This document shows, piece after piece, positions 37,649-52,738 of a stretch of DNA of 64,000 nucleotides; the stretch's first letter is position 1; each line of letters starts with the position of its first letter. Source of the stretch: Flavobacterium potami (GTDB taxonomy: Bacteria; Bacteroidota; Bacteroidia; Flavobacteriales; Flavobacteriaceae); NCBI RefSeq assembly GCF_020026915.1, contig NZ_JAINUY010000004.1, positions 1 to 64,000 on the forward strand, read 5' to 3'. The translations under genes and the position numbers were made by a program. Under the pieces are notes generated by a model that was given only the letters and a program-made list of their open reading frames with translations, did not search any database and had not been told where the DNA came from.

Positions 37649-40600
37649 ATGAGAGCTGTCCTGTTTCTACTTTTACTACTATATTCGACCCTATCTTCAT
37701 CTCAAGGAATTGCAGTCGATACTACAACTTTGAGCATCCCAGAATTGGTGCGAACGGAGTTGATGCAAAATGGCTGTTCAAACGAAAGTAATTTTAAATT
37801 TTCCTCACATCAGGGTATCGGTAAATTCACCAATACCAATCCGAACTTTCCAATTTCTAGCGGAATAATTATACGAAACGGAATCGCCAAATATACCGAA
37901 GGTCCATACAACGGCACAAATGAAAGTAGTAAAATCAATAATGCGACCGATAGTGATCTACAGGAAATCAGTGATAATAACGGGCAAACTGTACCTGTTA
38001 CCGATGTCAGCTTTCTTCAATTTGATTTTACCCCTTTATCCAGTAATTTTAGCTTTGATTTTCTTTTTGCCTCCAATGAATATGGAGAATTTCAATGCGG
38101 ATTTAGTGATGTTTTTGCCTTTATATTAACAGATTTAACCACAGGAATTACCACCAATCTTGCCGTAGTGCCAGGAACAACGACGCCTGTTTCTGTCAAA
38201 AACATTAGAGACCAGCAATATAATTCGTCTTGTTTATCTGCCAACGCAAATCTATTTGATCGTTACAATGTTGCGAATCCTGTTCAGTCACCTCTTAATA
38301 TGAGAGGCGAAACCAAAGTTTTAACTGCTAGCTCAACGGTTATTCCGAACAGAACGTATCGCATAAAACTGGCAATTGGCGATTACAACGACAGTAATTA
38401 TGACTCAGCAGTATTTATAAAAGGAGGTAGTTTTATGACTACTCTAAATCTAGGACCAGATCGAACGATTTGCCAAAGCGAAAAAATTACCCTTACAGCC
38501 GAACTTGTGGGGAATTTTAATTATGAATGGACATTAAACGGACTTGTAATTCCTAATGAAACCAGCAATTCAATCACAGTAGATAAAGCCGGAACTTATG
38601 GCGTAACAGCAACACTTTCAGGCTGTGTTATTAAAGACGAAGTTGTTATTCAAGACCTCATCATAAGATCTCCTCAAAATCTAACTGCCTGTTATAACAC
38701 AAATGGTATTTATCAATATGATTTAACGGTAAATAATTTAGCCGCATTAGGAATTGATCCTGAAAAATATGCCATTTATTACTTTGATTCTTTAGCTTCA
38801 GCGAATGCTAACGGACCAACGATACCTGAAAATCAATTAAAATCATATACCAGTTCTGGCAATCAGACCATTTATATAAAAGCGGTTCCAATTTATGATA
38901 AAACTTTCTTTTGCAGTAATCTTGTTTCTTTTAATTTATTAGTAACTCAGCCAATTAATGTTGCAAAACCGCCAGATTTAAGTGGTTGTGATGATTTAGC
39001 TAAAAATGTTACTTTCGATTTAACCGCTCAGGAAACCATCATTTTGAATGGCTTAAATCCTGCTGAATACAAAATCAGTTATCACAATAGCCAAACAGAT
39101 GCCAACAACAAAACAAACAACATTTCAAATCCAAAAACATTCAGAACATCTTTATCAGAATCACCAAAAACAATTTGGGTTCGAGTTGAAAATATTTCGA
39201 GTGCTGCTTGTTACGCCACAGTTAGTTTCAACATTATCATCAATCCACTTCCTGTTGTAGATAAAATTCCGAATGTTGTTGCCTGTAACAGTTATACCTT
39301 ACCGCCAATTCAAAATGGAGAATATAATACAGCCCCAAATGGAACTGGAACGAAACTAAATGCAGGAGATGTCATTACCACGGGCGGTCTTTATTATATC
39401 TATAAGGGACCAAATGCGAACAACTGCACCAATGAAACCAGTTTTAATGTTATCCTGATTTACGAAATTGATTTTAAAAAAGAAGCCTGCGGTCAGTATA
39501 TCGTTCCAAGAGTACCTGCGGGAGGTTTTTTTACACAACCTGGAGAAAAAGGGGATTCTATTCCTGAAGGAACAGCATTTACGGCGAGTCAAACAATTTA
39601 CTATTATGTAGTAATCAATGGTTCGGTATGTCGCGATATAGCAGTACCTTTTATAGTGTATCCTTTACCATTGGTAGACAAACCTGCCAATATCATTACT
39701 TGCGATTCTTATGCATTGCCTCCACTAACTAACGGAAATTATTTTACTTTATCTGGAGGTTTGGGTACAAAATTGAATGCCGGAGACAGAATAACAACAA
39801 GCCAGACCGTTTTTGTTTTTGCAAATGATGGAAGATGTACCAATGAAAATTCGTTTAAAATAGACATCATCAATTCTCCCATATTTGTTCCAGTTTCAAG
39901 ATGCGGAAGTTTTACTTTACCTCCAGTTGCCGTTGGTGGTTATTATGACAGCCCTGGTGGTCAGGGCAAAAATATCCCGGCCGGAACTGTTATTACCAAT
40001 TCGCAAACTGTCTACTATTTTGCCACAACAACAACTTCGCCCAATTGCACCGAAAATCTTAAATATGTCATTACTATAAATCCTCTTCCCCTAGTTGATA
40101 CACCAGTCAATAGATTAGAATGCAACCGTTATGTATTACCACCATTGACAAATGGCAATTATTTTACGCAAAGCAATGGTAAAGGAAAAGCATTAAAAGC
40201 AGGTGACATCATTACTTCTACACAAACTATTTACGTTTATTCCGTAGGGCCTTTATGTACAAACGAACATAGTTTTACTGTCGAAATTAGGCCTCTTCCT
40301 CCAGTTGACAGTTTCACAGACGTTGTAACCTGTAATGATTTTATACTTCCTAAATTAAAAAATGGAAAATATTACACAGCTACCGGAGGACCAAAAGGAA
40401 CGGGAACGCAACTTACTGAAGGAACAAGAATTAACACAACCCAGACTATTTACATTTATAACGAATGGGCAGATTTTAAATCCTGCAGTAACGAAACGTT
40501 TTTCAAAGTCAATTATAACGGAATAGACGTTGGTAATTTTAGCAATATAAATGCATGCGATAGTTATACTTTACCTGCTTTAACATTAGGAAATTATTAT

Positions 40601-41704
40601 ACACAGTCTGGAGGAAAAGGTCCTGTTATTCCGGCTGGAACTGTCATCACCAACTCGCAAACCCTATATGTTTATGCTATTGTCGGTACACGTTTAACTT
40701 GTGTCAGCGAAAAGAGTTTCTTGGTTACTATTTCCAAAACTCCAATCTTGGTTAGCACTCCTGATATTGCTATTTGCGAAAGCTATACGCTGCCTGCTTC
40801 AACCGTGGGAAATTATTATAGCGGCCCCAATGCAACCGGAACCCAATATATGGCAGGACAAAAAATAAATAATAGTCAAAAAATGTATATTTATGCATCG
40901 GCGGCGACAAATTCCAGTTGTTTTGCTCAGGATGATTTTGATATAACTATTTATCCTCTTAAAAATTTATCGATACCAAACGGAATCATTTGTGTTGATT
41001 TCCAAACAGGAACCTTGCGACATTCAGCACTATTAAATTCTGGAATAAATTCACCCGATTATACTGTAGAATGGTATCTAAAAGGCTCAAAAGTCAGTAC
41101 AGGCCCAACCTATTCTGCAACTCAAGAAGGAATTTACACTGTTGTACCTGTCAAAAACGTACCCGATGTCGGCAACGACTGTGGTTATAATCAGACTACC
41201 GTTACCGTCGAAAAATCTAGTCAGGCAGTTGCAACGGTTTCTGTATCTGATAATTTCACAGATGACATCGACATCATTGTAAATCTTACAAACGGATTCG
41301 GAACCTACGAATACCAATTGGATGATGGTGAATTTCAGACTAGCAATACCTTTGTGGACGTTGATTCCGGAGAACATGCCATTACAATAAGAGATATAAA
41401 AGCCAATTGCGACAATCTTATTTTATTTGCCAAAGTACTCAAATATCCAAAATTTTTCACCCCAAACAACGATGGGTATAACGATACTTGGAACATTCCT
41501 GATCTCGCAGATCAGCCCGATGCCGTTATCACTATTTTCGACCGATACGGCAAACTCATAAAAACAATTAAACCTTCCGGTATTGGCTGGGACGGCAATT
41601 ATGACGGTGCTCCCCTTCCTTCTACAGATTACTGGTTTGTGGCAACCTACACCCAAAATGGCATAATTCAGGAATTTAAAGCTCATTTTAGTATGAAACG
41701 ATAA
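37649..41704 (+). CDS. Large T9SS cargo protein with eight Cys repeats and CHU_C end
   Basis: A 1351-residue secreted protein (signal MRAVLFLLLLLYSTLSSSQG). Residues ~30-260 form a choice-of-anchor-L-type domain (FLQFDFTPLSSNFSFDFLFA, NEYGEFQCGFSDVFAF). An Ig-like domain follows, then from ~540 eight repeats of ~80 residues with the pattern C-x2-Y-x-LPP-x5-G-x-Y, each with a second Cys before a (T/S)(N/E)E(N/T)SF strand, suggesting a disulphide per repeat. The last ~85 residues are the gliding-motility-associated CHU_C domain (FFTPNNDGYNDTWNIPDL, ITIFDRYGKLIKTI), the type B T9SS signal. Such proteins act as surface adhesins. A structured repeat follows 6 nt after the stop. Confidence 0.9.
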   Translation: MRAVLFLLLLLYSTLSSSQGIAVDTTTLSIPELVRTELMQNGCSNESNFKFSSHQGIGKFTNTNPNFPISSGIIIRNGIAKYTEGPYNGTNESSKINNATDSDLQEISDNNGQTVPVTDVSFLQFDFTPLSSNFSFDFLFASNEYGEFQCGFSDVFAFILTDLTTGITTNLAVVPGTTTPVSVKNIRDQQYNSSCLSANANLFDRYNVANPVQSPLNMRGETKVLTASSTVIPNRTYRIKLAIGDYNDSNYDSAVFIKGGSFMTTLNLGPDRTICQSEKITLTAELVGNFNYEWTLNGLVIPNETSNSITVDKAGTYGVTATLSGCVIKDEVVIQDLIIRSPQNLTACYNTNGIYQYDLTVNNLAALGIDPEKYAIYYFDSLASANANGPTIPENQLKSYTSSGNQTIYIKAVPIYDKTFFCSNLVSFNLLVTQPINVAKPPDLSGCDDLAKNVTFDLTAQETIILNGLNPAEYKISYHNSQTDANNKTNNISNPKTFRTSLSESPKTIWVRVENISSAACYATVSFNIIINPLPVVDKIPNVVACNSYTLPPIQNGEYNTAPNGTGTKLNAGDVITTGGLYYIYKGPNANNCTNETSFNVILIYEIDFKKEACGQYIVPRVPAGGFFTQPGEKGDSIPEGTAFTASQTIYYYVVINGSVCRDIAVPFIVYPLPLVDKPANIITCDSYALPPLTNGNYFTLSGGLGTKLNAGDRITTSQTVFVFANDGRCTNENSFKIDIINSPIFVPVSRCGSFTLPPVAVGGYYDSPGGQGKNIPAGTVITNSQTVYYFATTTTSPNCTENLKYVITINPLPLVDTPVNRLECNRYVLPPLTNGNYFTQSNGKGKALKAGDIITSTQTIYVYSVGPLCTNEHSFTVEIRPLPPVDSFTDVVTCNDFILPKLKNGKYYTATGGPKGTGTQLTEGTRINTTQTIYIYNEWADFKSCSNETFFKVNYNGIDVGNFSNINACDSYTLPALTLGNYYTQSGGKGPVIPAGTVITNSQTLYVYAIVGTRLTCVSEKSFLVTISKTPILVSTPDIAICESYTLPASTVGNYYSGPNATGTQYMAGQKINNSQKMYIYASAATNSSCFAQDDFDITIYPLKNLSIPNGIICVDFQTGTLRHSALLNSGINSPDYTVEWYLKGSKVSTGPTYSATQEGIYTVVPVKNVPDVGNDCGYNQTTVTVEKSSQAVATVSVSDNFTDDIDIIVNLTNGFGTYEYQLDDGEFQTSNTFVDVDSGEHAITIRDIKANCDNLILFAKVLKYPKFFTPNNDGYNDTWNIPDLADQPDAVITIFDRYGKLIKTIKPSGIGWDGNYDGAPLPSTDYWFVATYTQNGIIQEFKAHFSMKR

Positions 41705-43176: not shown

Positions 43177-43875
43177 CTAAAAGAGTCCTTTACTTTTTGC
43201 TTCTTTGAGTAAATCATCATCAGAATTGTTTTTGATTTTCAGCAATTCTTTTAAGTGTTTTTTTCTTTTTTCGATTGCATTTAAAGAAATGGGAATATTT
43301 TGCAGCATGTCATTACTTGAAATTCCTTTTGCTAAATGAATTAAAATCTGCTTATCGTACTGATCAATTTCAATGGCATTGTGCGTAGACTGATTTAGCA
43401 TTTTTACCACTGATTGGCTGTAATATTTTTCATTTTTCATTACTTTATCAAAAGCCAGAAGCAGCTCATCAAAAGTGAGATCATTTTTAATAATTAAACC
43501 ATTTGGCTGAATTGATCTGATAATTGTTTTAATTTTCAGTAATTCTGTATACATGGTCAGCAGAATAATATTGCAGGAAGGCATTTTCCTCAAAAGCAGT
43601 TTGGCCAGATCTTCTCCAGAAAAAATCTCTTTTTCTTCATAAGGAGGCATACTGATATCTAAAAATGCAATATCAAATTGTGGTGAATTAGGATCTTCAA
43701 TAATTTCGTAACCCGATTTACAATCGTGCGCCTGAAAAATTGAAAATTCATACTGTTGTGGATTATACCGCGTAATGGCATTCTTGTATCCTTCAATAAT
43801 AAATGGATGATCATCTACTATTAAAATGTTTTTTTTAACTAATTGCGAAACGGAGGCTGTTACATCAAATGTCAT
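43177..43875 (-). CDS. NarL/LuxR-type response regulator
   Basis: A 232-residue regulator. The receiver has the acidic pair in ILIVDDHPFI, the phospho-acceptor Asp near residue 72 in IAFLDISMPP, the Thr in ILLTMYT and the Lys in LIIKND. The C-terminal domain (about 165-225; DKQILIHLAKGISSNDMLQN, NAIEKRKKHLKELL) is a LuxR/GerE-like helix-turn-helix. Its ATG overlaps the kinase gene by 11 nt, so the two are translationally coupled and are cognate partners. It is the last gene of the signalling cluster and ends at a terminator. Confidence 0.92.
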   Translation of the reverse strand: MTFDVTASVSQLVKKNILIVDDHPFIIEGYKNAITRYNPQQYEFSIFQAHDCKSGYEIIEDPNSPQFDIAFLDISMPPYEEKEIFSGEDLAKLLLRKMPSCNIILLTMYTELLKIKTIIRSIQPNGLIIKNDLTFDELLLAFDKVMKNEKYYSQSVVKMLNQSTHNAIEIDQYDKQILIHLAKGISSNDMLQNIPISLNAIEKRKKHLKELLKIKNNSDDDLLKEAKSKGLF

Positions 43876-45922
43876 TATTATGCAGGTAAGTATTAGGTAT
43901 TATTGGGATTTTGACAGTAAGCTTAGTTCCTTCTCCTTTAACAGATTTTATAGCAACTGTTCCTTTACATTCTTTCGCTCTGTATTCGATATTGTGCAGA
44001 CCAATTCCGTTTTTGGTCCTTTTGGTATTAAATCCTATTCCGTCATCTTCAATAGTTAATACCAAAACTTCATTTTGATTTTTCATCTCCACTTTAATAA
44101 AATCTGCATTGGCATATTTATTACAATTTTGAAGTCCTTCCTGGATAATTCTATATAAATTGATTTTGACAATGTTGCTTATCAATTCCCATTTAATGTT
44201 GGGATCAAAATTGGTAATCAATTTAGAATTATACGTATTTATTTGATTTTCAAATAGTTTATTTAAAATCGCGATAAAATTATTAATTAATTCCGATTTT
44301 TCTCTATTTAAATCATGAGAAATTTCACGAATATCCTGCTCGATATTTTTTAACTCTGCAAGATACTTTTTTCTTTTAGAAGCCGCCTCCTCTTCATCAA
44401 GTTTATCGAGACTGTCAAGACTAATTCTAATACCAAACATACGCCCCAAAACTCCGTCATGCAGTTCCTGAGCCACATTTTTCTTTTCTCTTATCCTTGT
44501 TAATTCAATTTCGTTCTGCTGTGAAATCATCAAATTGTAAATATCTTCATTTGCAATTTGCTGTTGTTGTTTAAAAAGCAATTCACGATTTTTAGCCTGC
44601 TGGGTTTTATAAACGTAAAAAAACAATCCGAGCAATGTACAAATACTAAAAACATAAACCAAAGTTTTGTTTTTTTCCTGAAGGTTGGAGTTTTGATCTT
44701 TTATTTCATTGGTTTCGTATTCTATTCGAGAGAATTTTTCACCCATTTTTCGTTCTTCCTTCAACATTTTATCGTTGAGTTTGATATATTCTCTCGAATA
44801 AACAGAGGCATTTTTTGGATCAACAATAGCCGTTTGCTTAAGAGCTTCTAAAGTATTTACAAATTTGGCTGTAGTTCGGGAAAGCGTCAAAGCCTGTTTG
44901 GATAATTCTAATGCCTTTGCAGTATCTTTATTAAAAGCATAATATTCAGACAAATGGATTTTACTGGACACTACCCCAGAAAACAAATCAAGGCTATCTC
45001 TAATTTGCAGTGATCTATAAAAAAGATCTGGCAATTGGGTAGAATCATTAAGTTTGAATTTCGAATATCCGAGATTATCAAGTAAAATGGCATATAAACT
45101 TGCCCTATCGTGAAAAAGATTTTTTTGACTCAGTCCGTCTTCAAAATAACTTTTTGCTTCTGTATAATTCCCCATATTCATATAGATGAAACCGATATTA
45201 TTTAAAGAAGCTGCCTTATATTGAAATTCTGAGGCTATACTTTTATCCTGAAGAATCTTTAAAGCGTTATTCTGAAATTCCAAAGCCTTTTTATATTCTT
45301 CCCTTTCATTATATAAAACTCCGAGCAGGTTATAACTTTCGTATAGAAGTTCGTTTACATTTTTCTCCTTTTTTAAAATACTCAAAGTTTTAAAAACAGT
45401 GATTTCGCTTTCAAAAAAATCTCCTTCATTGTATTGCAGATTCGCTTTACTCAAAAATGTTTTCGCCAGATTTAGTTGATCTTTTATTTTTAAATATGTT
45501 TTCTCTGCGCTATAATAATACATGAATGCACTATCAGAAACAGATTGAGAAACGTAGTAATCACCCAAATAAGTGTATGCTTTGGCCACGTGTACAGAAT
45601 CTCTAGATTTCTGCGATCGATCCAAAATTAATTTTGTGGTACTGAGGTAAGATTTCCAGTCGCTCATATTGTAAAAACGATTGGCAACTTTGAAAAGATT
45701 AACCTTATTTATGGAATCATTTTTTTGAGCTAAAATGATATTTAGCGCCTTCTGATTATAACTTTGTTTGAATTTGAAAGGAATAGTATCCTCATTAGCA
45801 AGAGAAAGATAGATGGGAAGACTATCAGCTGAAGAAATTGTATTAGTATCTAACCCTGTTTTCTTGGTACAACCCAACAAAACCAAGAGTATAAGTAATA
45901 CTATTTTGCTTGTGTCTTTCAA
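43865..45922 (-). CDS. TPR-containing HisKA_3 sensor histidine kinase (lipoprotein-type)
   Basis: A 685-residue sensor starting at TTG 45922: LKDTSKIVLLILLVLLGCTK, a lipoprotein signal. An ATG at 45985 is rejected because it lies in the loop of the upstream gene's terminator and upstream of a near-perfect promoter. Residues ~70-380 are tetratricopeptide repeats (ESYNLLGVLYNEREEYKKAL, NIGFIYMNMGNYTEAKSYFE). A membrane helix at about 421-439 leads to a coiled coil, a HisKA_3 dimerisation domain with His488 in QELHDGVLGRM, and an HATPase_c domain (DDGIGFNTKRTKNGIGLHNI). The TPR part should be periplasmic and bind a protein or peptide. It signals to the overlapping NarL-type regulator. Confidence 0.9.
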   Translation of the reverse strand: MKDTSKIVLLILLVLLGCTKKTGLDTNTISSADSLPIYLSLANEDTIPFKFKQSYNQKALNIILAQKNDSINKVNLFKVANRFYNMSDWKSYLSTTKLILDRSQKSRDSVHVAKAYTYLGDYYVSQSVSDSAFMYYYSAEKTYLKIKDQLNLAKTFLSKANLQYNEGDFFESEITVFKTLSILKKEKNVNELLYESYNLLGVLYNEREEYKKALEFQNNALKILQDKSIASEFQYKAASLNNIGFIYMNMGNYTEAKSYFEDGLSQKNLFHDRASLYAILLDNLGYSKFKLNDSTQLPDLFYRSLQIRDSLDLFSGVVSSKIHLSEYYAFNKDTAKALELSKQALTLSRTTAKFVNTLEALKQTAIVDPKNASVYSREYIKLNDKMLKEERKMGEKFSRIEYETNEIKDQNSNLQEKNKTLVYVFSICTLLGLFFYVYKTQQAKNRELLFKQQQQIANEDIYNLMISQQNEIELTRIREKKNVAQELHDGVLGRMFGIRISLDSLDKLDEEEAASKRKKYLAELKNIEQDIREISHDLNREKSELINNFIAILNKLFENQINTYNSKLITNFDPNIKWELISNIVKINLYRIIQEGLQNCNKYANADFIKVEMKNQNEVLVLTIEDDGIGFNTKRTKNGIGLHNIEYRAKECKGTVAIKSVKGEGTKLTVKIPIIPNTYLHNNDI

Positions 45923-45942
45923 TTCTGTTTTTTGAATTTTAC

Positions 45943-45971
45943 CAAAAATACTAAAAAACTTGAGACACAAA
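45943..45971 (-). promoter_or_regulatory. Promoter of the sensor kinase gene
   Basis: On the minus strand TTTG (45971-45968), exactly 17 nt, then TATTTTTG (45950-45943): a close match to the Bacteroidota consensus. It follows directly after the terminator of the repeat-peptide gene and precedes the TTG start by 20 nt. This decides the start codon. Confidence 0.7.
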
Positions 45972-45997
45972 AAAAAAGCTGTCATTTCTGACAGCTT
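45969..45997 (-). terminator. Terminator of the repeat-peptide gene
   Basis: On the minus strand AAGCTGTCA (45997-45989) pairs with TGACAGCTT (45984-45976) and runs into a T-tract. It separates the small peptide gene from the kinase transcript, so the two are probably expressed at different levels. Confidence 0.88.
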
Positions 45998-46018
45998 AAA
46001 TATATATTTTGATGTAGA

Positions 46019-46300
46019 TTAGTCTACTTTTTTATCATTTCCGATAGATTGATTAACGCTAGCAAAGTTAACAGGAGCGTCTTTCTTTTTGATTACTCCA
46101 CCTGCAGCACCACCATCGATTGGCAACATTGCATAAGCATCTTTCTTTTTAATTACTCCACCGGCAGCACCTCCGTCAATTGCAAAAGCATCTTTCTTCT
46201 TGATTACTCCACCTGCAGCTCCACCGTCGATTGGTGTGCTAAAAGAAGTTGCTATTACTACTAAAGAAAATAATCCGATTGATAAAGCTGTGTTTTTCAT
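46019..46300 (-). CDS. Small secreted protein with three identical 15-residue repeats
   Basis: A 93-residue protein: signal peptide MKNTALSIGLFSLVVIATSF, then three copies of IDGGAAGGVIKKKDA (residues 24-38, 41-55 and 61-75; DNA 46187-46231, 46136-46180, 46076-46120), then a tail ending GNDKKVD. Eight of 15 codons differ between copies and every difference is synonymous, so the peptide sequence itself is under selection. Each unit joins a Gly/Ala-rich core to a basic KKKD end, a possible processing site. It has its own terminator and lies between a LytTR regulator and a TPR histidine kinase on the same strand. I know no named family; a peptide precursor or small envelope protein is possible. 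Confidence 0.82.
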   Translation of the reverse strand: MKNTALSIGLFSLVVIATSFSTPIDGGAAGGVIKKKDAFAIDGGAAGGVIKKKDAYAMLPIDGGAAGGVIKKKDAPVNFASVNQSIGNDKKVD

Positions 46301-46476
46301 GACCTGAGGTTTTAAATGTTTGTTTTAATTTTTGGAGAAATGATTGCTGTTTGTTGCAAATCATGGTGTAAAACTAATACGAAGGCCAAGAAAAATTTAT
46401 ACGAAAAATTGAGATTGTGGTAGATCATACCCAATTGATAGTCAATGGATAGCAAATCTGAGTAAATGTCTACTTT

Positions 46477-47331
46477 TTAGATTTCCAAATAATTACCAGC
46501 TGCAAAATCAGCAATTATCTGATCGACGTTTGCTTTGTAAGTCTTAGAAAAAGGGATTTTCTTTGAAGAATTTTTAATGTAACAGATTGAGTTTCCGCTA
46601 TGAATTCTGGAAATATAATTTCGATTAATGACATAACTGTTATGAATACGAATAAACGGATACGTTAATATGCTTTCAAAATGCTTTAACGTTTTAAATG
46701 CGGTAATCATTTCACCGGTATTCAAATAAATATCGGTCGAATTGTTATCTGCCTGAAAATAACATATATCGGCTGCGTTTAAATAACGATAATCTCCATA
46801 AGATTTTATACAGATGGTTAATGGTCGTTCGACATTTTGCGGAATTGTCACATTATTCACATTATCTATGACAATAGAAGTTGGCTCTTCTTTAATTGGT
46901 GCTGTTTTATGGTCTAAATTTGCTTTTTTAAGCCTTAAAACAGTTTTTAGAAGATCGAGATGAGCAACAGGCTTTAAAATATAATCAAAGACACCGTATT
47001 GAATTGCATCAAAGGCTTTCTCTTTTTTATGGGTCGTAATAATAATTTTGGGAATTTCTTGAAAAAACCGATGCAGTTCACTTATAAAACCTAAAGACAA
47101 TTGACTTGAAGAATTTTTAGGATCGATTTCCAGAAAAACCAAAGTGGGTTTGTGCTCCAAAACCAAATTTAAACCGTCTTGAAAATTGGATGCCGATGCA
47201 ATAAAAGATAATTCTGAAAAACCTGCAGCGGTTGTCTTGGTTTTCAAAATACTTTCAGCATCATCATCAACAATAATATACGAATATTTCCTCAATTTTT
47301 GGTTTTGTTGATTTCCTCCATAAGCGATCAC
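46477..47331 (-). CDS. LytTR-type response regulator with Glu at the phospho-acceptor site
   Basis: A 284-residue protein with a receiver domain (VDDDAESI acidic residues, ITTHKK, YILKPVAHLDLL) and a C-terminal LytTR DNA-binding domain (about 175-280; RYLNAADICYFQADNNSTDI, FIRIHNSYVINRNYI). Where receivers have FLD, this one has FLEIDP: Glu68 replaces the phosphorylated Asp, which often mimics the active state. No kinase gene of the LytS type is next to it. The start is GTG at 47331; a TTG at 47295 (LRKYSYIIVDDD) is an alternative giving a standard-length receiver. The product probably acts as a constitutive or ligand-controlled DNA-binding protein. Confidence 0.88.
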   Translation of the reverse strand: MIAYGGNQQNQKLRKYSYIIVDDDAESILKTKTTAAGFSELSFIASASNFQDGLNLVLEHKPTLVFLEIDPKNSSSQLSLGFISELHRFFQEIPKIIITTHKKEKAFDAIQYGVFDYILKPVAHLDLLKTVLRLKKANLDHKTAPIKEEPTSIVIDNVNNVTIPQNVERPLTICIKSYGDYRYLNAADICYFQADNNSTDIYLNTGEMITAFKTLKHFESILTYPFIRIHNSYVINRNYISRIHSGNSICYIKNSSKKIPFSKTYKANVDQIIADFAAGNYLEI

Positions 47332-49891: not shown

Positions 49892-52570
49892 TTAATTGAC
49901 TATAATTTTTCTTACCGTTCTTTTTTCGCCGTCTGTAATGGTTACGAAATAAACACCCGCAGGAACATTTGGCAATTGAATATCTTGAATAAAATAGCCG
50001 GAACCTTGGAATGTTTTGTTGTACACATATTTTCCTAAAATATCGTGTACATAGACTTTAATATCTTTCACAGAATCTCTTGCAAACTGTATCGTAAAAT
50101 TCCCTTTATTCGGATTTGGAAATAAAGCAAAATCTACATTCTGAAAATCTTCTGTATCCAGCGTATACGTTGTATTACAAATGTTTACAGAAGCTGAATT
50201 TATGGTTCCTAACATTCCGACAACATTATCGCGAACTCTAAAAGTCCAAGTTCCCTCAGGATTTTGACCATTAAAAGCACTTAAAGCGCTGGCAGGAATT
50301 ACAATCTGACTCGTTGTTGTACTACAATTTAAAGCATTTCCGCTATCATCAAACTGTAGCGCAAGTGTTGAATTTGTGCTGCCACAACTTTTGTTAAACA
50401 AACTTACCACTGTCCCACTTGGGCTCACGATCTGCATTTCCAGATCTGAGAATCGTGCATGAGTCACATTTACGGTAACATTTACATCTGAAATTGTTCC
50501 TGTTGAAGACGGAACTGTAATTGTTTTATTTATAAAAGTTGAACTATTTCCTGTCGAATATCCACCTTCGAAATTATAAGTAGAACAGCTTGTAGTAACA
50601 TTGTAACCAATTGCAAATGGGGTTTTATTGACAGCATAATAAATATTGTTAACAGGCTCGATCAAAAGTCTGCAATTTGTAGATGGTGTAATTCCCGTCG
50701 GAATTAAAACTGTTTCTGATCCGTCATTCAAGGTATTTGAAGCCAGAACGGTAGGAAATGTCAAACCTCCATCTAAAGACAATCTAATATTAACGTTTGC
50801 CGATCCTGGAAGTGTATTGGTATTATTTACACTCCAAGTAACGGTTTGTGTGGAACCTTTTTCCCATCCGATATTGTCTGTGTTTTGAGAAGTTACAGCA
50901 AATGGCCCAGCTGCAGCACTTACTGTCACAACCATTGCATCTGTACTGGTTTGAGCCGTATATTCTGCTGTGATATCTCTTCCCGTTAAGGTAAAATTCA
51001 TTGTTTTGGCAATAGAAGAAACAGATTCCCAAGTTGTTGTTAACTGATTATTTAATACAGAACTTAAAGCTGGCATATAACGAACTGGAGATGCAGTTGG
51101 AGGAAACGATCGAAACATTGGTCCGTCTGGTTTGGTTGCATACGCAATACTATTTGCACCCGTTGTTGTTATGGCGCTATCAAATTGCTCCCAGGTATAG
51201 GTTATAGAATTACCTTCAGGATCTGTACCTGTTCCGGTTAAAACAAATGGCGTACTAATTGGAATAGTATAATCTGCCCCTGCATTAATAACGGGTGGAT
51301 TATTAGCAATAACTGTTGTCACCGCACAAGTTTTTCCTGCCAAATTATTCTGTATCTGATTGATACTTCCGTAAGAGAAATAATCATCAGAATTATTCTG
51401 AATATCGTAAGTTCCGGTAACTCCGGCATATCCCATAATGGTCGAACCACTTCCCGGCTCATAATGCGTTCCTAATCCTTCTGCTTTATAAGAAAAAGTA
51501 TGCGTTCCGCCTAGTTGATGCCCCATTTCATGAGCAACAAAATCAATATCAAAAGTATCTCCTAATGGTCTTTGGTTAGATGGAGAAGTATAAGCACTTC
51601 CTTTTCCCATTGGAATACTGGTTGTTGGACTCACACAAACACATCCGATACACCCCGAATTTCCGCCTCCGCCAGATGCTCCAAACAAATGCCCGATATC
51701 GTAATTTGCTTCTCCAATTACATTTGTCAAAGTAGTTTGAACTTCCTGACCCCATGTACCACCCGGATCTGCAGTTCCAGCCGAAGCGTTAGAATACGGG
51801 TCTGTAGTGGCATTGGTATAAATTACGGCATCGTTATTGGCAATCAAAACCAATTTTACAGAAAGATCTTTATCAAAAACCCCATTTACTCTTGTCATTG
51901 TCGCATTCATTCCAGCTAAAGCGCCCTCTTTTGTACCGCCAAAAAAAGCCGTGTATTCTCCCGTACAGGACAAAGCCAAACGAAACGTTTTGAATTGTTT
52001 AGCATTTGAAGCCGTTTTACCCATAGTCGAAGATTGGCTTTCTGAGATTGAATTGATAGTTTTACAATCTAGACGCATTTTTGAATCGGCATTGTCTGCA
52101 GATTTAAACAATACATATTCCGATTTATCATCAGGATTTTGCTCAATAAATTCTGTTGGTTTTTCTACGCGGAAAACCATTGTCTGTATTCCTATCGGTG
52201 CAACACTAAAATGTATTTTAGCACTTTTATCGTCTATTCCTATTCCTTGATACGCTCTAATTTCAGGATATTTTGCCTGCAATTCCGGATCAAAATTAGA
52301 AGATTCCCAAACCGAAAAACGCTCTAAACTTCCATCATAATTTGGAATTGTTATTTCGGCAGTATTACTTTTTGAAGTTTTATTTGTTGCAGAAACCAAT
52401 TTTGAACTAAAAAGTTCTGCATTTAATTTATAATATAATTTGTTTGAATCTGAAGCACTTACCTTTCGCGTAAGCGAAGAAGAATTTACTTTTTGCCACA
52501 AAACAGTACTCTGAGCGTTAACGCCGGCACAACAAAAAATAAAAAATAAATAAAGTAATTGTTTTTTCAT
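49892..52570 (-). CDS. Secreted metzincin (reprolysin-like) protease, T9SS type A
   Basis: An 892-residue protein with signal MKKQLLYLFFIFCCAGVNAQ; I place the start at 52570 because an ATG at 52636 adds 22 residues ahead of the signal. A propeptide region is followed by a metzincin catalytic domain with HEMGHQLGGTH (three His and Glu) and Met-turn TIMGYAG. Next come Ig/PKD-like domains (NAGADYTIPISTPFVLTGTG), a proprotein-convertase P-type domain (SDVNVTVNVTHARFSDLEMQ) and a type A sorting domain (FALFPNPNKGNFTIQF, AGVYFVTITDGEKRTVRKII). It is exported across the outer membrane by T9SS and likely digests extracellular protein. Confidence 0.92.
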   Translation of the reverse strand: MKKQLLYLFFIFCCAGVNAQSTVLWQKVNSSSLTRKVSASDSNKLYYKLNAELFSSKLVSATNKTSKSNTAEITIPNYDGSLERFSVWESSNFDPELQAKYPEIRAYQGIGIDDKSAKIHFSVAPIGIQTMVFRVEKPTEFIEQNPDDKSEYVLFKSADNADSKMRLDCKTINSISESQSSTMGKTASNAKQFKTFRLALSCTGEYTAFFGGTKEGALAGMNATMTRVNGVFDKDLSVKLVLIANNDAVIYTNATTDPYSNASAGTADPGGTWGQEVQTTLTNVIGEANYDIGHLFGASGGGGNSGCIGCVCVSPTTSIPMGKGSAYTSPSNQRPLGDTFDIDFVAHEMGHQLGGTHTFSYKAEGLGTHYEPGSGSTIMGYAGVTGTYDIQNNSDDYFSYGSINQIQNNLAGKTCAVTTVIANNPPVINAGADYTIPISTPFVLTGTGTDPEGNSITYTWEQFDSAITTTGANSIAYATKPDGPMFRSFPPTASPVRYMPALSSVLNNQLTTTWESVSSIAKTMNFTLTGRDITAEYTAQTSTDAMVVTVSAAAGPFAVTSQNTDNIGWEKGSTQTVTWSVNNTNTLPGSANVNIRLSLDGGLTFPTVLASNTLNDGSETVLIPTGITPSTNCRLLIEPVNNIYYAVNKTPFAIGYNVTTSCSTYNFEGGYSTGNSSTFINKTITVPSSTGTISDVNVTVNVTHARFSDLEMQIVSPSGTVVSLFNKSCGSTNSTLALQFDDSGNALNCSTTTSQIVIPASALSAFNGQNPEGTWTFRVRDNVVGMLGTINSASVNICNTTYTLDTEDFQNVDFALFPNPNKGNFTIQFARDSVKDIKVYVHDILGKYVYNKTFQGSGYFIQDIQLPNVPAGVYFVTITDGEKRTVRKIIVN

Positions 52571-52738
52571 ATTTCGATCGGGATATAATATCAAAATTAC
52601 TTTAATTAATTTTAAAATATACAAGATATAAGACAATTAACGCTTTTTAATCGACGAGTTGGTCTGTTTTCTCAAAAAGAAATCAGCAGAATAGTTAAAA
52701 TTCGATTTAGCCAGTACTAAATTTAAGACAGAATAGTA

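Follow-up and report, generated by a model that had tools for sequence, protein, structure and literature searches.

The locus in Flavobacterium potami

We analyzed a stretch of 64,000 nucleotides (nt) from Flavobacterium potami (contig NZ_JAINUY010000004.1, positions 1 to 64,000), hereafter the window, in which four open reading frames (ORFs) stand in a row on the minus strand. They encode a LytTR protein, a small secreted precursor of 93 amino acids (aa), a histidine kinase with tetratricopeptide repeats (TPRs), and a response regulator. An original prediction, made from the letters of this DNA, proposed that the small protein is cut into a peptide that is sensed by the TPR domain of the kinase. 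The observation behind it is confirmed and is larger than first described. The row of genes is present as claimed, and the Pfam domains agree with it: LytTR and Response_reg in the first protein (46477..47331; PF04397, PF00072), TPR, HisKA_3, and HATPase_c in the kinase (43865..45922), and Response_reg with DUF5932 in the regulator (43177..43875), whose ORF overlaps that of the kinase by 11 nt. The order glyS, LytTR gene, precursor gene, TPR kinase gene, regulator gene, with thiL on the opposite strand, is that of the 103 loci we read (counts by position are given below), and the ORF list of the window contains no genes besides the four in the glyS–thiL interval.

Some parts of the earlier description had to be revised. 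The first protein had been called a LytTR regulator. It does have LytTR and receiver domains, but a Glu takes the place of the phospho-accepting Asp; its listed start is a GTG, and the real one may be an internal TTG. The last protein has a receiver with an intact phosphorylation site and a LuxR/NarL-like C-terminal part. Its label “NarL-type” is a matter of resemblance only: the NCBIfam NarL/UvrY-type models score far under their cutoffs. The kinase is a TPR lipoprotein, as predicted from its domains and lipobox, but it probably starts at the TTG at 45922, giving 685 aa, and not at the ATG at 45985 of the ORF list. The TTG is preferred because the ATG lies inside a terminator-like hairpin and because a TTG stands 14 to 22 codons before the lipobox Cys in 102 of the 103 loci (an ATG is found there in 6). 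The lipobox Cys and the H-box His are present in all 103 loci, in kinases of 685 to 706 aa. The extracytoplasmic sensor part begins at the lipobox Cys and reaches to the membrane helix (44663..45871, minus strand); it is a TPR domain of 403 residues, backed by the structure model and by covariation.

The precursor and its repeat units

The precursor gene (46019..46300, minus strand) encodes a Sec-type leader, judged by sequence only, followed by three identical units and one diverged C-terminal unit. The protein reads MKNTALSIGLFSLVVIATSFSTP, then three copies of IDGGAAGGVIKKKD(A), and ends in ...NFASVNQSIGNDKKVD. The three identical 15-residue units reported earlier, IDGGAAGGVIKKKDA, are indeed the same in amino acids and carry synonymous differences in DNA; the IDGGAAGGVIKKKD copies lie at 46190..46231 (unit 1), 46139..46180 (unit 2), and 46079..46120 (unit 3). 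The reported pattern was nevertheless incomplete, for the segment ASVNQSIGNDKKVD (46022..46063) belongs to it as a fourth, diverged unit, which is kept in the family alignment and covaries with the TPR sensor.

When aligned, family members show a common leader, 1 to 6 units, and often a conserved end, NQSxGxxKKxD. Internal repeats, recognized by amino-acid similarity between copies, occur in 48 of the 103 precursors. Copies within one gene show 362 synonymous differences over 1096 sites (pS, the proportion of synonymous differences, 0.331) and 60 nonsynonymous differences over 3542 sites (pN, its nonsynonymous counterpart, 0.017). Hence, the copies are mostly old and kept alike rather than recent duplicates, although the contrast is somewhat inflated, since repeats recognized by their amino-acid likeness bias pN downward. 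The unit differs among species (for example, LVGGAATGGNKKLD, IDGGSRNIKTDN, EIGGQESRGSRRI, EVGGERSKPVL, and IIGGQSAGGNMKLD), and 57 distinct core 14-mers were found among 63 loci. Among the 48 repeat-bearing precursors, a period of 14 is the most frequent (15 precursors), and Asp is the last residue in 90 of the 103; together, this suggests that a unit has about 14 residues and ends in Asp.

Searches of Pfam, NCBIfam, PHROGs, and PDB gave no significant match to the precursor (E of 0.3 in the Pfam and PHROGs rows shown) and thus offer no known family, phage protein, or solved structure for it. The units resemble the PID-CTERM sorting signal (PIDGG... KK); we rejected this candidate, because NCBIfam gives no match at E ≤ 1 and because the core is free to vary among family members. 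The genome of F. potami has no second copy of the 93-aa protein (one match in all at E ≤ 10).

Conservation of the locus

A search with the single sequence found relatives of the precursor in 109 of 398 Flavobacterium genomes, and a profile built from 25 members matched 227 of the 398. Among 299 genomes sampled from Flavobacteriaceae, the same profile gave 7 matches, 2 of them within the genus and 5 weak ones outside it (E 0.002 to 0.007). The 103 loci read closely are the window, stretches of up to 9 kb around 100 matches, and the loci of F. notoginsengisoli and F. chungbukense. With 9 further matches, the reading covers the loci of 112 of the 227 profile-positive genomes, those with the stronger scores.

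A TPR kinase gene stands directly downstream of the precursor gene in 103 of the 103 loci, 102 of them by an automatic adjacency rule, and in 9 of the 9 further matches. In L077, the exception to the rule, the gene directly downstream is that of a divergent TPR kinase, and another kinase gene follows it. The claim that homologues always occur beside a TPR kinase is therefore borne out in all 112 genomes whose loci were read; the opposite pattern, named beforehand as evidence against the idea, namely homologues widespread with no kinase nearby, was not seen in any of these 112 loci. By the adjacency rule, the LytTR gene precedes the precursor in 102 of the 103 loci and the regulator follows the kinase in 101; thiL is found in 92 and glyS in 100. 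Tandem TPR kinases occur at L142:0-4167, L108:3835-8405, and L077:0-4520, and in L142 each kinase has its own precursor of different sequence.

The gap between the LytTR and kinase genes, with a median of 546 nt, contains a small ORF with a signal-like start, judged by our own hydropathy rule, in 98 of 102 loci. Such ORFs were found in 2 of 100 glyS-LytTR gaps (median 288 nt), in 13 of 1020 shuffled gaps, and in 0 of 92 regulator-thiL gaps, the last being a weak control because these gaps are short (median 90 nt). The profile matches in 227 of 398 genomes and the excess over the controls argue that the small ORF does not occupy this slot by chance.

The TPR sensor

The predicted structure of the TPR part has a predicted local distance difference test score (pLDDT) of 90.1 and a predicted template-modeling score (pTM) of 0.84. 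The nearest PDB structures are TPR superhelices, mostly solved with peptides or partners. They include LGN/Pins (Z scores 27-29), NprR (26.1 in the apo form, 24.6 with NprX), and Rap proteins (about 23-26), several of the matched Rap structures containing their pheromones. Rap3T and RapF are also found among the many sequence-profile matches to the TPR part, where engineered and kinesin light chain TPRs rank higher. The fold that the modeled sensor has in common with Rap and NprR is no proof of function.

Covariation of peptide and sensor

Each gene of the locus was aligned, and mature peptides were compared by local alignment score. The matrix tests used 100 of the 103 loci (in L068, L125, and L126, glyS or LytTR lies outside the stretch), of which 63 form a crown set whose kinase catalytic part (CAT) is at least 74% identical to that of the window; 37 were left out of this set. 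In the crown set, the similarity of the peptides correlates with the identity of the TPR sensor at r = 0.717; the values are 0.19 for CAT, 0.19 for LytTR, 0.16 for the regulator (RR), and 0.16 for glyS. Given the other four, the partial correlation is 0.719 for TPR (p = 0.002, the lowest value reachable with 499 permutations), 0.02 for CAT, and -0.11 for RR. Across all 100 usable loci, it is 0.486 for TPR, 0.215 for LytTR, 0.02 for glyS, -0.01 for CAT, and -0.30 for RR. As in pherotype systems, the variation of the peptide is matched to the sensor domain rather than to the rest of the locus, with a small residual for LytTR. Taken as a claim about ligand and receptor, the original prediction is well supported.

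The association is also concentrated within the proteins. When measured by column, it exceeds 0.3 in 21 columns of the leader/TPR half of the kinase, with a top value of 0.54 in the TPRs; no column exceeds 0.21 in LytTR or 0.18 in the regulator, and the mean is near zero in LytTR, in the catalytic half, and in the regulator. On quick maximum-likelihood trees, the 25 peptide classes, which were defined by one threshold and of which 11 contain a single locus, require 24 changes on the TPR tree, which is the minimum, against 40 on the CAT tree and 40 on the LytTR tree; shuffled labels give a mean of 48 and a lowest value of 43-44.

Within the peptide gene, the core 14-mer and the C-terminal 14 residues alone each correlate with the TPR sensor at r = 0.60. 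The leader (residues 1-20) gives r = -0.02 with the sensor and 0.30 with the species marker glyS, a null result of limited power because the leader is nearly invariant. Along the kinase, amino-acid values are 0.60 for residues 326-400, about 1 kb from the peptide gene, 0.36 for residues 401-475, which include the membrane helix, and 0.14-0.20 for the catalytic half. The last LytTR residues, which are closer to the peptide gene than most of the TPR part, are at background (0.09 for synonymous sites, 0.18 for amino acids), and LytTR amino-acid values overall are 0.14-0.18. The covarying block thus has functional edges, with LytTR, the leader, and the catalytic half at background, which is the pattern expected of a matched ligand and receptor.

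Control of the locus

A hairpin like those of Rho-independent terminators lies between the peptide gene and the kinase gene (45976..45997, minus strand; z -3.8). Such hairpins are present in this gap in 97 of 103 loci. On the upstream side of the precursor, 1 of 102 gaps has one, as do 7 of 1030 gaps after shuffling; hairpins follow glyS in 74 of 100 loci, as expected after a gene. Because the terminator precedes the kinase gene and the kinase probably starts at a TTG, this layout would favor high amounts of precursor and low amounts of kinase.

Upstream of the peptide gene, a footprint conserved across 102 loci (about 46415..46442, minus strand) contains two WCTAYCA-like words 18 nt apart. 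We propose this element as a candidate binding site of the LytTR protein. The 5.69-Mb genome of F. potami contains no other such site with fewer than 3 mismatches, and an attempt to derive a regulon gave five sites with 3 mismatches against three for the reversed control, so that no further targets could be named.

The phospho-acceptor position of the LytTR protein is Glu in 102 of 102 Flavobacterium loci. In a wider alignment of 58 rows (57 other loci and the window), this place is Asn in 23, Glu in 15, and Asp in 4, the alignment of the most distant rows being somewhat doubtful. The adjacent regulator has its phospho-accepting Asp in 103 of 103 loci. Since the regulator keeps the Asp and LytTR has Glu, the kinase most likely acts on the adjacent regulator, and the LytTR protein is likely to be a phosphorylation-independent regulator.

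Related loci in the genus and the family

Among 70 Flavobacterium genomes without a match to the precursor profile, a LytTR match at 1e-20 is present in 30 and absent in 40. In 26 of these 30 loci, the stretch includes a downstream TPR kinase, and 25 of the 26 have a small ORF with a leader or a lipoprotein-like start between LytTR and kinase; in the remaining one (L134), the small ORF stands before a second kinase. The genus also has a second type of LytTR locus (L133, L136, L138, L147, L148, and L149), with a divergent regulator gene and with small lipoproteins, whose ends resemble DNGDxxLPKPP, in the slot between the LytTR and TPR kinase genes. At L144:2951-3305, two separate small genes with near-identical products (ends ...QEPGGVVIDF) precede one TPR kinase, a repeat at the level of the gene and not of the unit.

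Beyond the genus, LytTR matches at 1e-25 occur in 51 of 198 Flavobacteriaceae genera (Flavobacterium counted). We read 28 loci from 28 other genera with 1.5-kb flanks. The start of the kinase is in view in 25, and all 25 have a small secreted ORF in the slot; two more genera agree (L215 and L216). Three loci (L180, L194, and L195) show an overlapping second small ORF that is probably spurious. Most slot ORFs of other genera look like lipoproteins and have acidic ends that vary; tandem repeats were found in L180 (CDDCAHDSDDRETLA), L191 (STDGDDTPTDDRQ), L193 (TDDDDNPVVEREG), and L195 (DSPDGDDIPDIET). In other families, 23 LytTR matches of 25-30% identity (L217-L226, L228-L236, and L238-L241) have no adjoining kinase of the module, two weak neighbors of 27-28 bits excepted; with flanks of 1.5 kb and a single query, this is a weak test of absence beyond the family.

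F. potami has a second pair on another contig (L254:5130-7070). Its TPR kinase (L254:5130-6839) has no LytTR gene beside it and is directly preceded by a 59-aa lipoprotein-like ORF that ends in ADGPGDDKTPPTKPADPDE. This kinase is one of four weaker TPR-kinase matches in the genome; its TPRs score above the Pfam cutoff and its HATPase_c domain below. Relatives of it were found in 20 of 60 genomes, and in 16 of 30 loci of this second kinase family a small lipoprotein-like ORF immediately precedes the kinase gene; its end varies (for example, ADGPGDD..PP). A small secreted ORF coupled to a TPR kinase may thus be a general theme in these bacteria.

A proposed mechanism and its alternatives

We consider it likely that the locus encodes a peptide ligand and a periplasmic TPR receptor of the pherotype type. 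Sequence alone shows the anatomy of the locus, its conservation, the constraint that keeps units identical, the covariation centered on mature peptide and TPR sensor, the terminator-like hairpin, and the lack of the phospho-Asp. We infer the following scheme, which concerns how the peptide is processed and bound, in which direction it signals, whether it reaches other cells, what LytTR controls, and how strongly the genes are expressed. The precursor would be exported by Sec and lose its leader, and proteolysis would free peptides of about 14 residues, mostly ending in (K/R)-x-Asp. In the periplasm, such a peptide would bind within the superhelix formed by the lipid-anchored TPR domain of the next-door kinase, and this would alter the phosphorylation state of the adjacent regulator. 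As for the LytTR protein, its receiver would not accept phosphate in the usual manner, and its most likely target is the promoter of the peptide gene. The terminator would yield much peptide mRNA, and read-through together with the TTG start little kinase. Peptide and sensor would change specificity jointly, the mature part and the sensor half being swapped between species as a cassette. A diffusible cell-to-cell signal seems the likeliest reading, with a self-sensing function in the envelope as its main rival.

Beyond the limits given with the numbers above, several points weigh against this proposal. A free peptide, its binding, and its action between cells all remain predictions, and a route across the outer membrane was neither found nor looked for. 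In a single-chain model of precursor and TPR sensor, the units are disordered (pLDDT of about 30, the best being 67 in the block of the C-terminal unit) and none is confidently placed. Groove positions are marginally enriched among the covarying columns (mean 0.162 vs 0.118, p = 0.056). LytTR keeps a partial correlation of 0.172 (p = 0.004) in the 63 loci and the 0.215 mentioned above in the 100, and glyS one of 0.080 (p = 0.020) in the 63. The synonymous identity of the TPR half covaries with the peptide as well (r 0.22-0.39), which indicates that peptide and sensor moved together as a block and that part of the signal is co-inheritance. Finally, the small ORF is missing from two paralogous LytTR loci within the family, L246 and L247, where a TPR protein stands directly behind, and from the upstream position in 14 of the 30 loci of the second kinase family (some of which are other paralogues or divergent).

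The self-sensing alternative takes the small protein to be a periplasmic partner of the kinase with no role between cells: the precursor, whole or in fragments, would bind the TPR domain of its own cell, as an accessory subunit or in self-sensing, and report secretion, proteolysis, or the state of the envelope. It would account equally well for synteny, covariation, and cassette inheritance; the sensor is periplasmic, and the many lipoprotein-like ORFs of other genera may stay in the envelope. What it does not easily explain are repeated units that are kept identical and a rapid change between species, with nearly every crown locus having its own core 14-mer. A protein with such an accessory role is usually folded and conserved. 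We therefore hold it to be unlikely, though well worth keeping in mind. The synonymous covariation would in turn suit a purely physical linkage, in which recombination carries the 5′ half of the kinase gene along with the peptide gene and the products never meet. Yet the end of LytTR, which is nearer to the peptide gene, is at background, residues 326-400 of the kinase reach 0.60 from about 1 kb away, and the leader of the peptide gene, little variable as it is, tracks species markers and not the sensor, all of which make linkage alone very improbable. That the small protein is a bacteriocin or another secreted effector under the control of the flanking two-component genes seems scarcely credible. 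Its product is small, secreted, Gly/Lys-rich, and hypervariable, and regulated bacteriocins are often found beside LytTR regulators, but in the window there is no other gene between glyS and thiL for immunity or export, the product has no match in Pfam, NCBIfam, or PHROGs, and neither identical tandem copies nor a match to the sensor is expected of an effector.

Comparison with known peptide systems

In the ComQXPA system of Bacillus, ComP senses its signal via membrane helices, and ComX is prenylated by ComQ. Our locus is similar in its HisKA_3-type kinase, its NarL-type regulator, its secreted peptide, and a cassette made of the peptide gene and the sensor half. The pairing of a HisKA_3 kinase with a NarL/LuxR-type regulator is found here, with PF07730 above its cutoff and the NarL/UvrY models far below theirs. 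The lipid-anchored periplasmic TPR sensor and the repeated units of the precursor set it apart. Neither ComQ nor another modifying enzyme is encoded between glyS and thiL among the ORFs of the window (no profile search was made elsewhere).

With the RRNPP systems (Rap-Phr, NprR-NprX, and PlcR-PapR) the locus shares a small secreted propeptide gene beside the gene of a TPR receptor. The two genes adjoin in 103 of 103 loci, secretion being judged from the leader sequence, and the Pfam TPRs and a model like Rap-Phr and NprR-NprX suggest TPRs of the peptide-binding kind. RRNPP receptors are cytoplasmic, have about 250-500 aa, and are no kinases. Here, the receptor would be the sensor, outside the cytoplasm, of a 685-aa kinase from a Gram-negative family; the lipobox Cys is present in all 103 loci, and the kinases have 685-706 aa. 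The comparison is one of fold and logic only. The RRNPP_detector study covered Firmicutes and viruses only (PMC10075063).

Our locus also recalls the Agr, ComCDE, and bacteriocin two-component systems by uniting a peptide gene, a kinase, and a LytTR protein and by its pherotype diversity. Those systems have polytopic kinase sensors and a phosphorylated LytTR regulator. Here, the receiver of the LytTR protein lacks the Asp (Glu in all Flavobacterium loci, see above), the kinase adjoins another regulator, and the sensor is a 403-residue TPR domain instead of a polytopic membrane part. The precursor of the yeast alpha-factor, a tandem-repeat pheromone precursor, likewise has a leader and then several identical short peptide copies; ours is bacterial, and its spacers are short or absent. 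By analogy, the locus would resemble pherotype systems of the ComQXPA kind more than any others in how it works, and the TPR principle known from RRNPP would here have been transferred to the periplasm. It belongs to neither RRNPP nor ComQXPA, because its receptor is not intracellular and is a kinase, no ComQ stands beside it in the window, and its LytTR protein is atypical.

Implications

On balance, we lean toward a general view in which ribosomal peptide pheromones are read by periplasmic TPR receptor kinases across Flavobacteriaceae, each species or species group having its own peptide, often in tandem, and peptide-sensor cassettes being swapped. If true, it would give Bacteroidota a first peptide language and peptide pheromones a new class of receptor, and one genome would have more than one such pair. 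The original prediction knew of no such system in Bacteroidota, and none is described among the literature matches listed (most subscription papers and all preprints are outside that search). Most of what is known of peptide signaling among bacteria comes from Gram-positives, as one study says for oligopeptides (PMC10075063). The proposal would also tell what some of the many Bacteroidota TPR histidine kinases sense.

The locus offers ready ligand/receptor pairs, since each of the distinct core 14-mers of the 63 loci comes with a presumed matching sensor, which makes specificity testable with synthetic peptides. In an abundant group of environmental bacteria, it would also offer a communication marker that is hypervariable and species-specific.

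Other putative secreted proteins in the window

Outside the finding on the peptide locus, two further proteins of the window were noted by eye. At 37649-41704, a 1351-aa secreted-looking protein has many repeats of the type CDSYTLPxLxxGxYYTxxxGxG and a C-terminal part like that of surface-sorted proteins. At 49892-52636, a secreted metalloprotease-like protein carries the motif HEMGHQLGGTH and a C-terminal tail resembling a type IX sorting domain.

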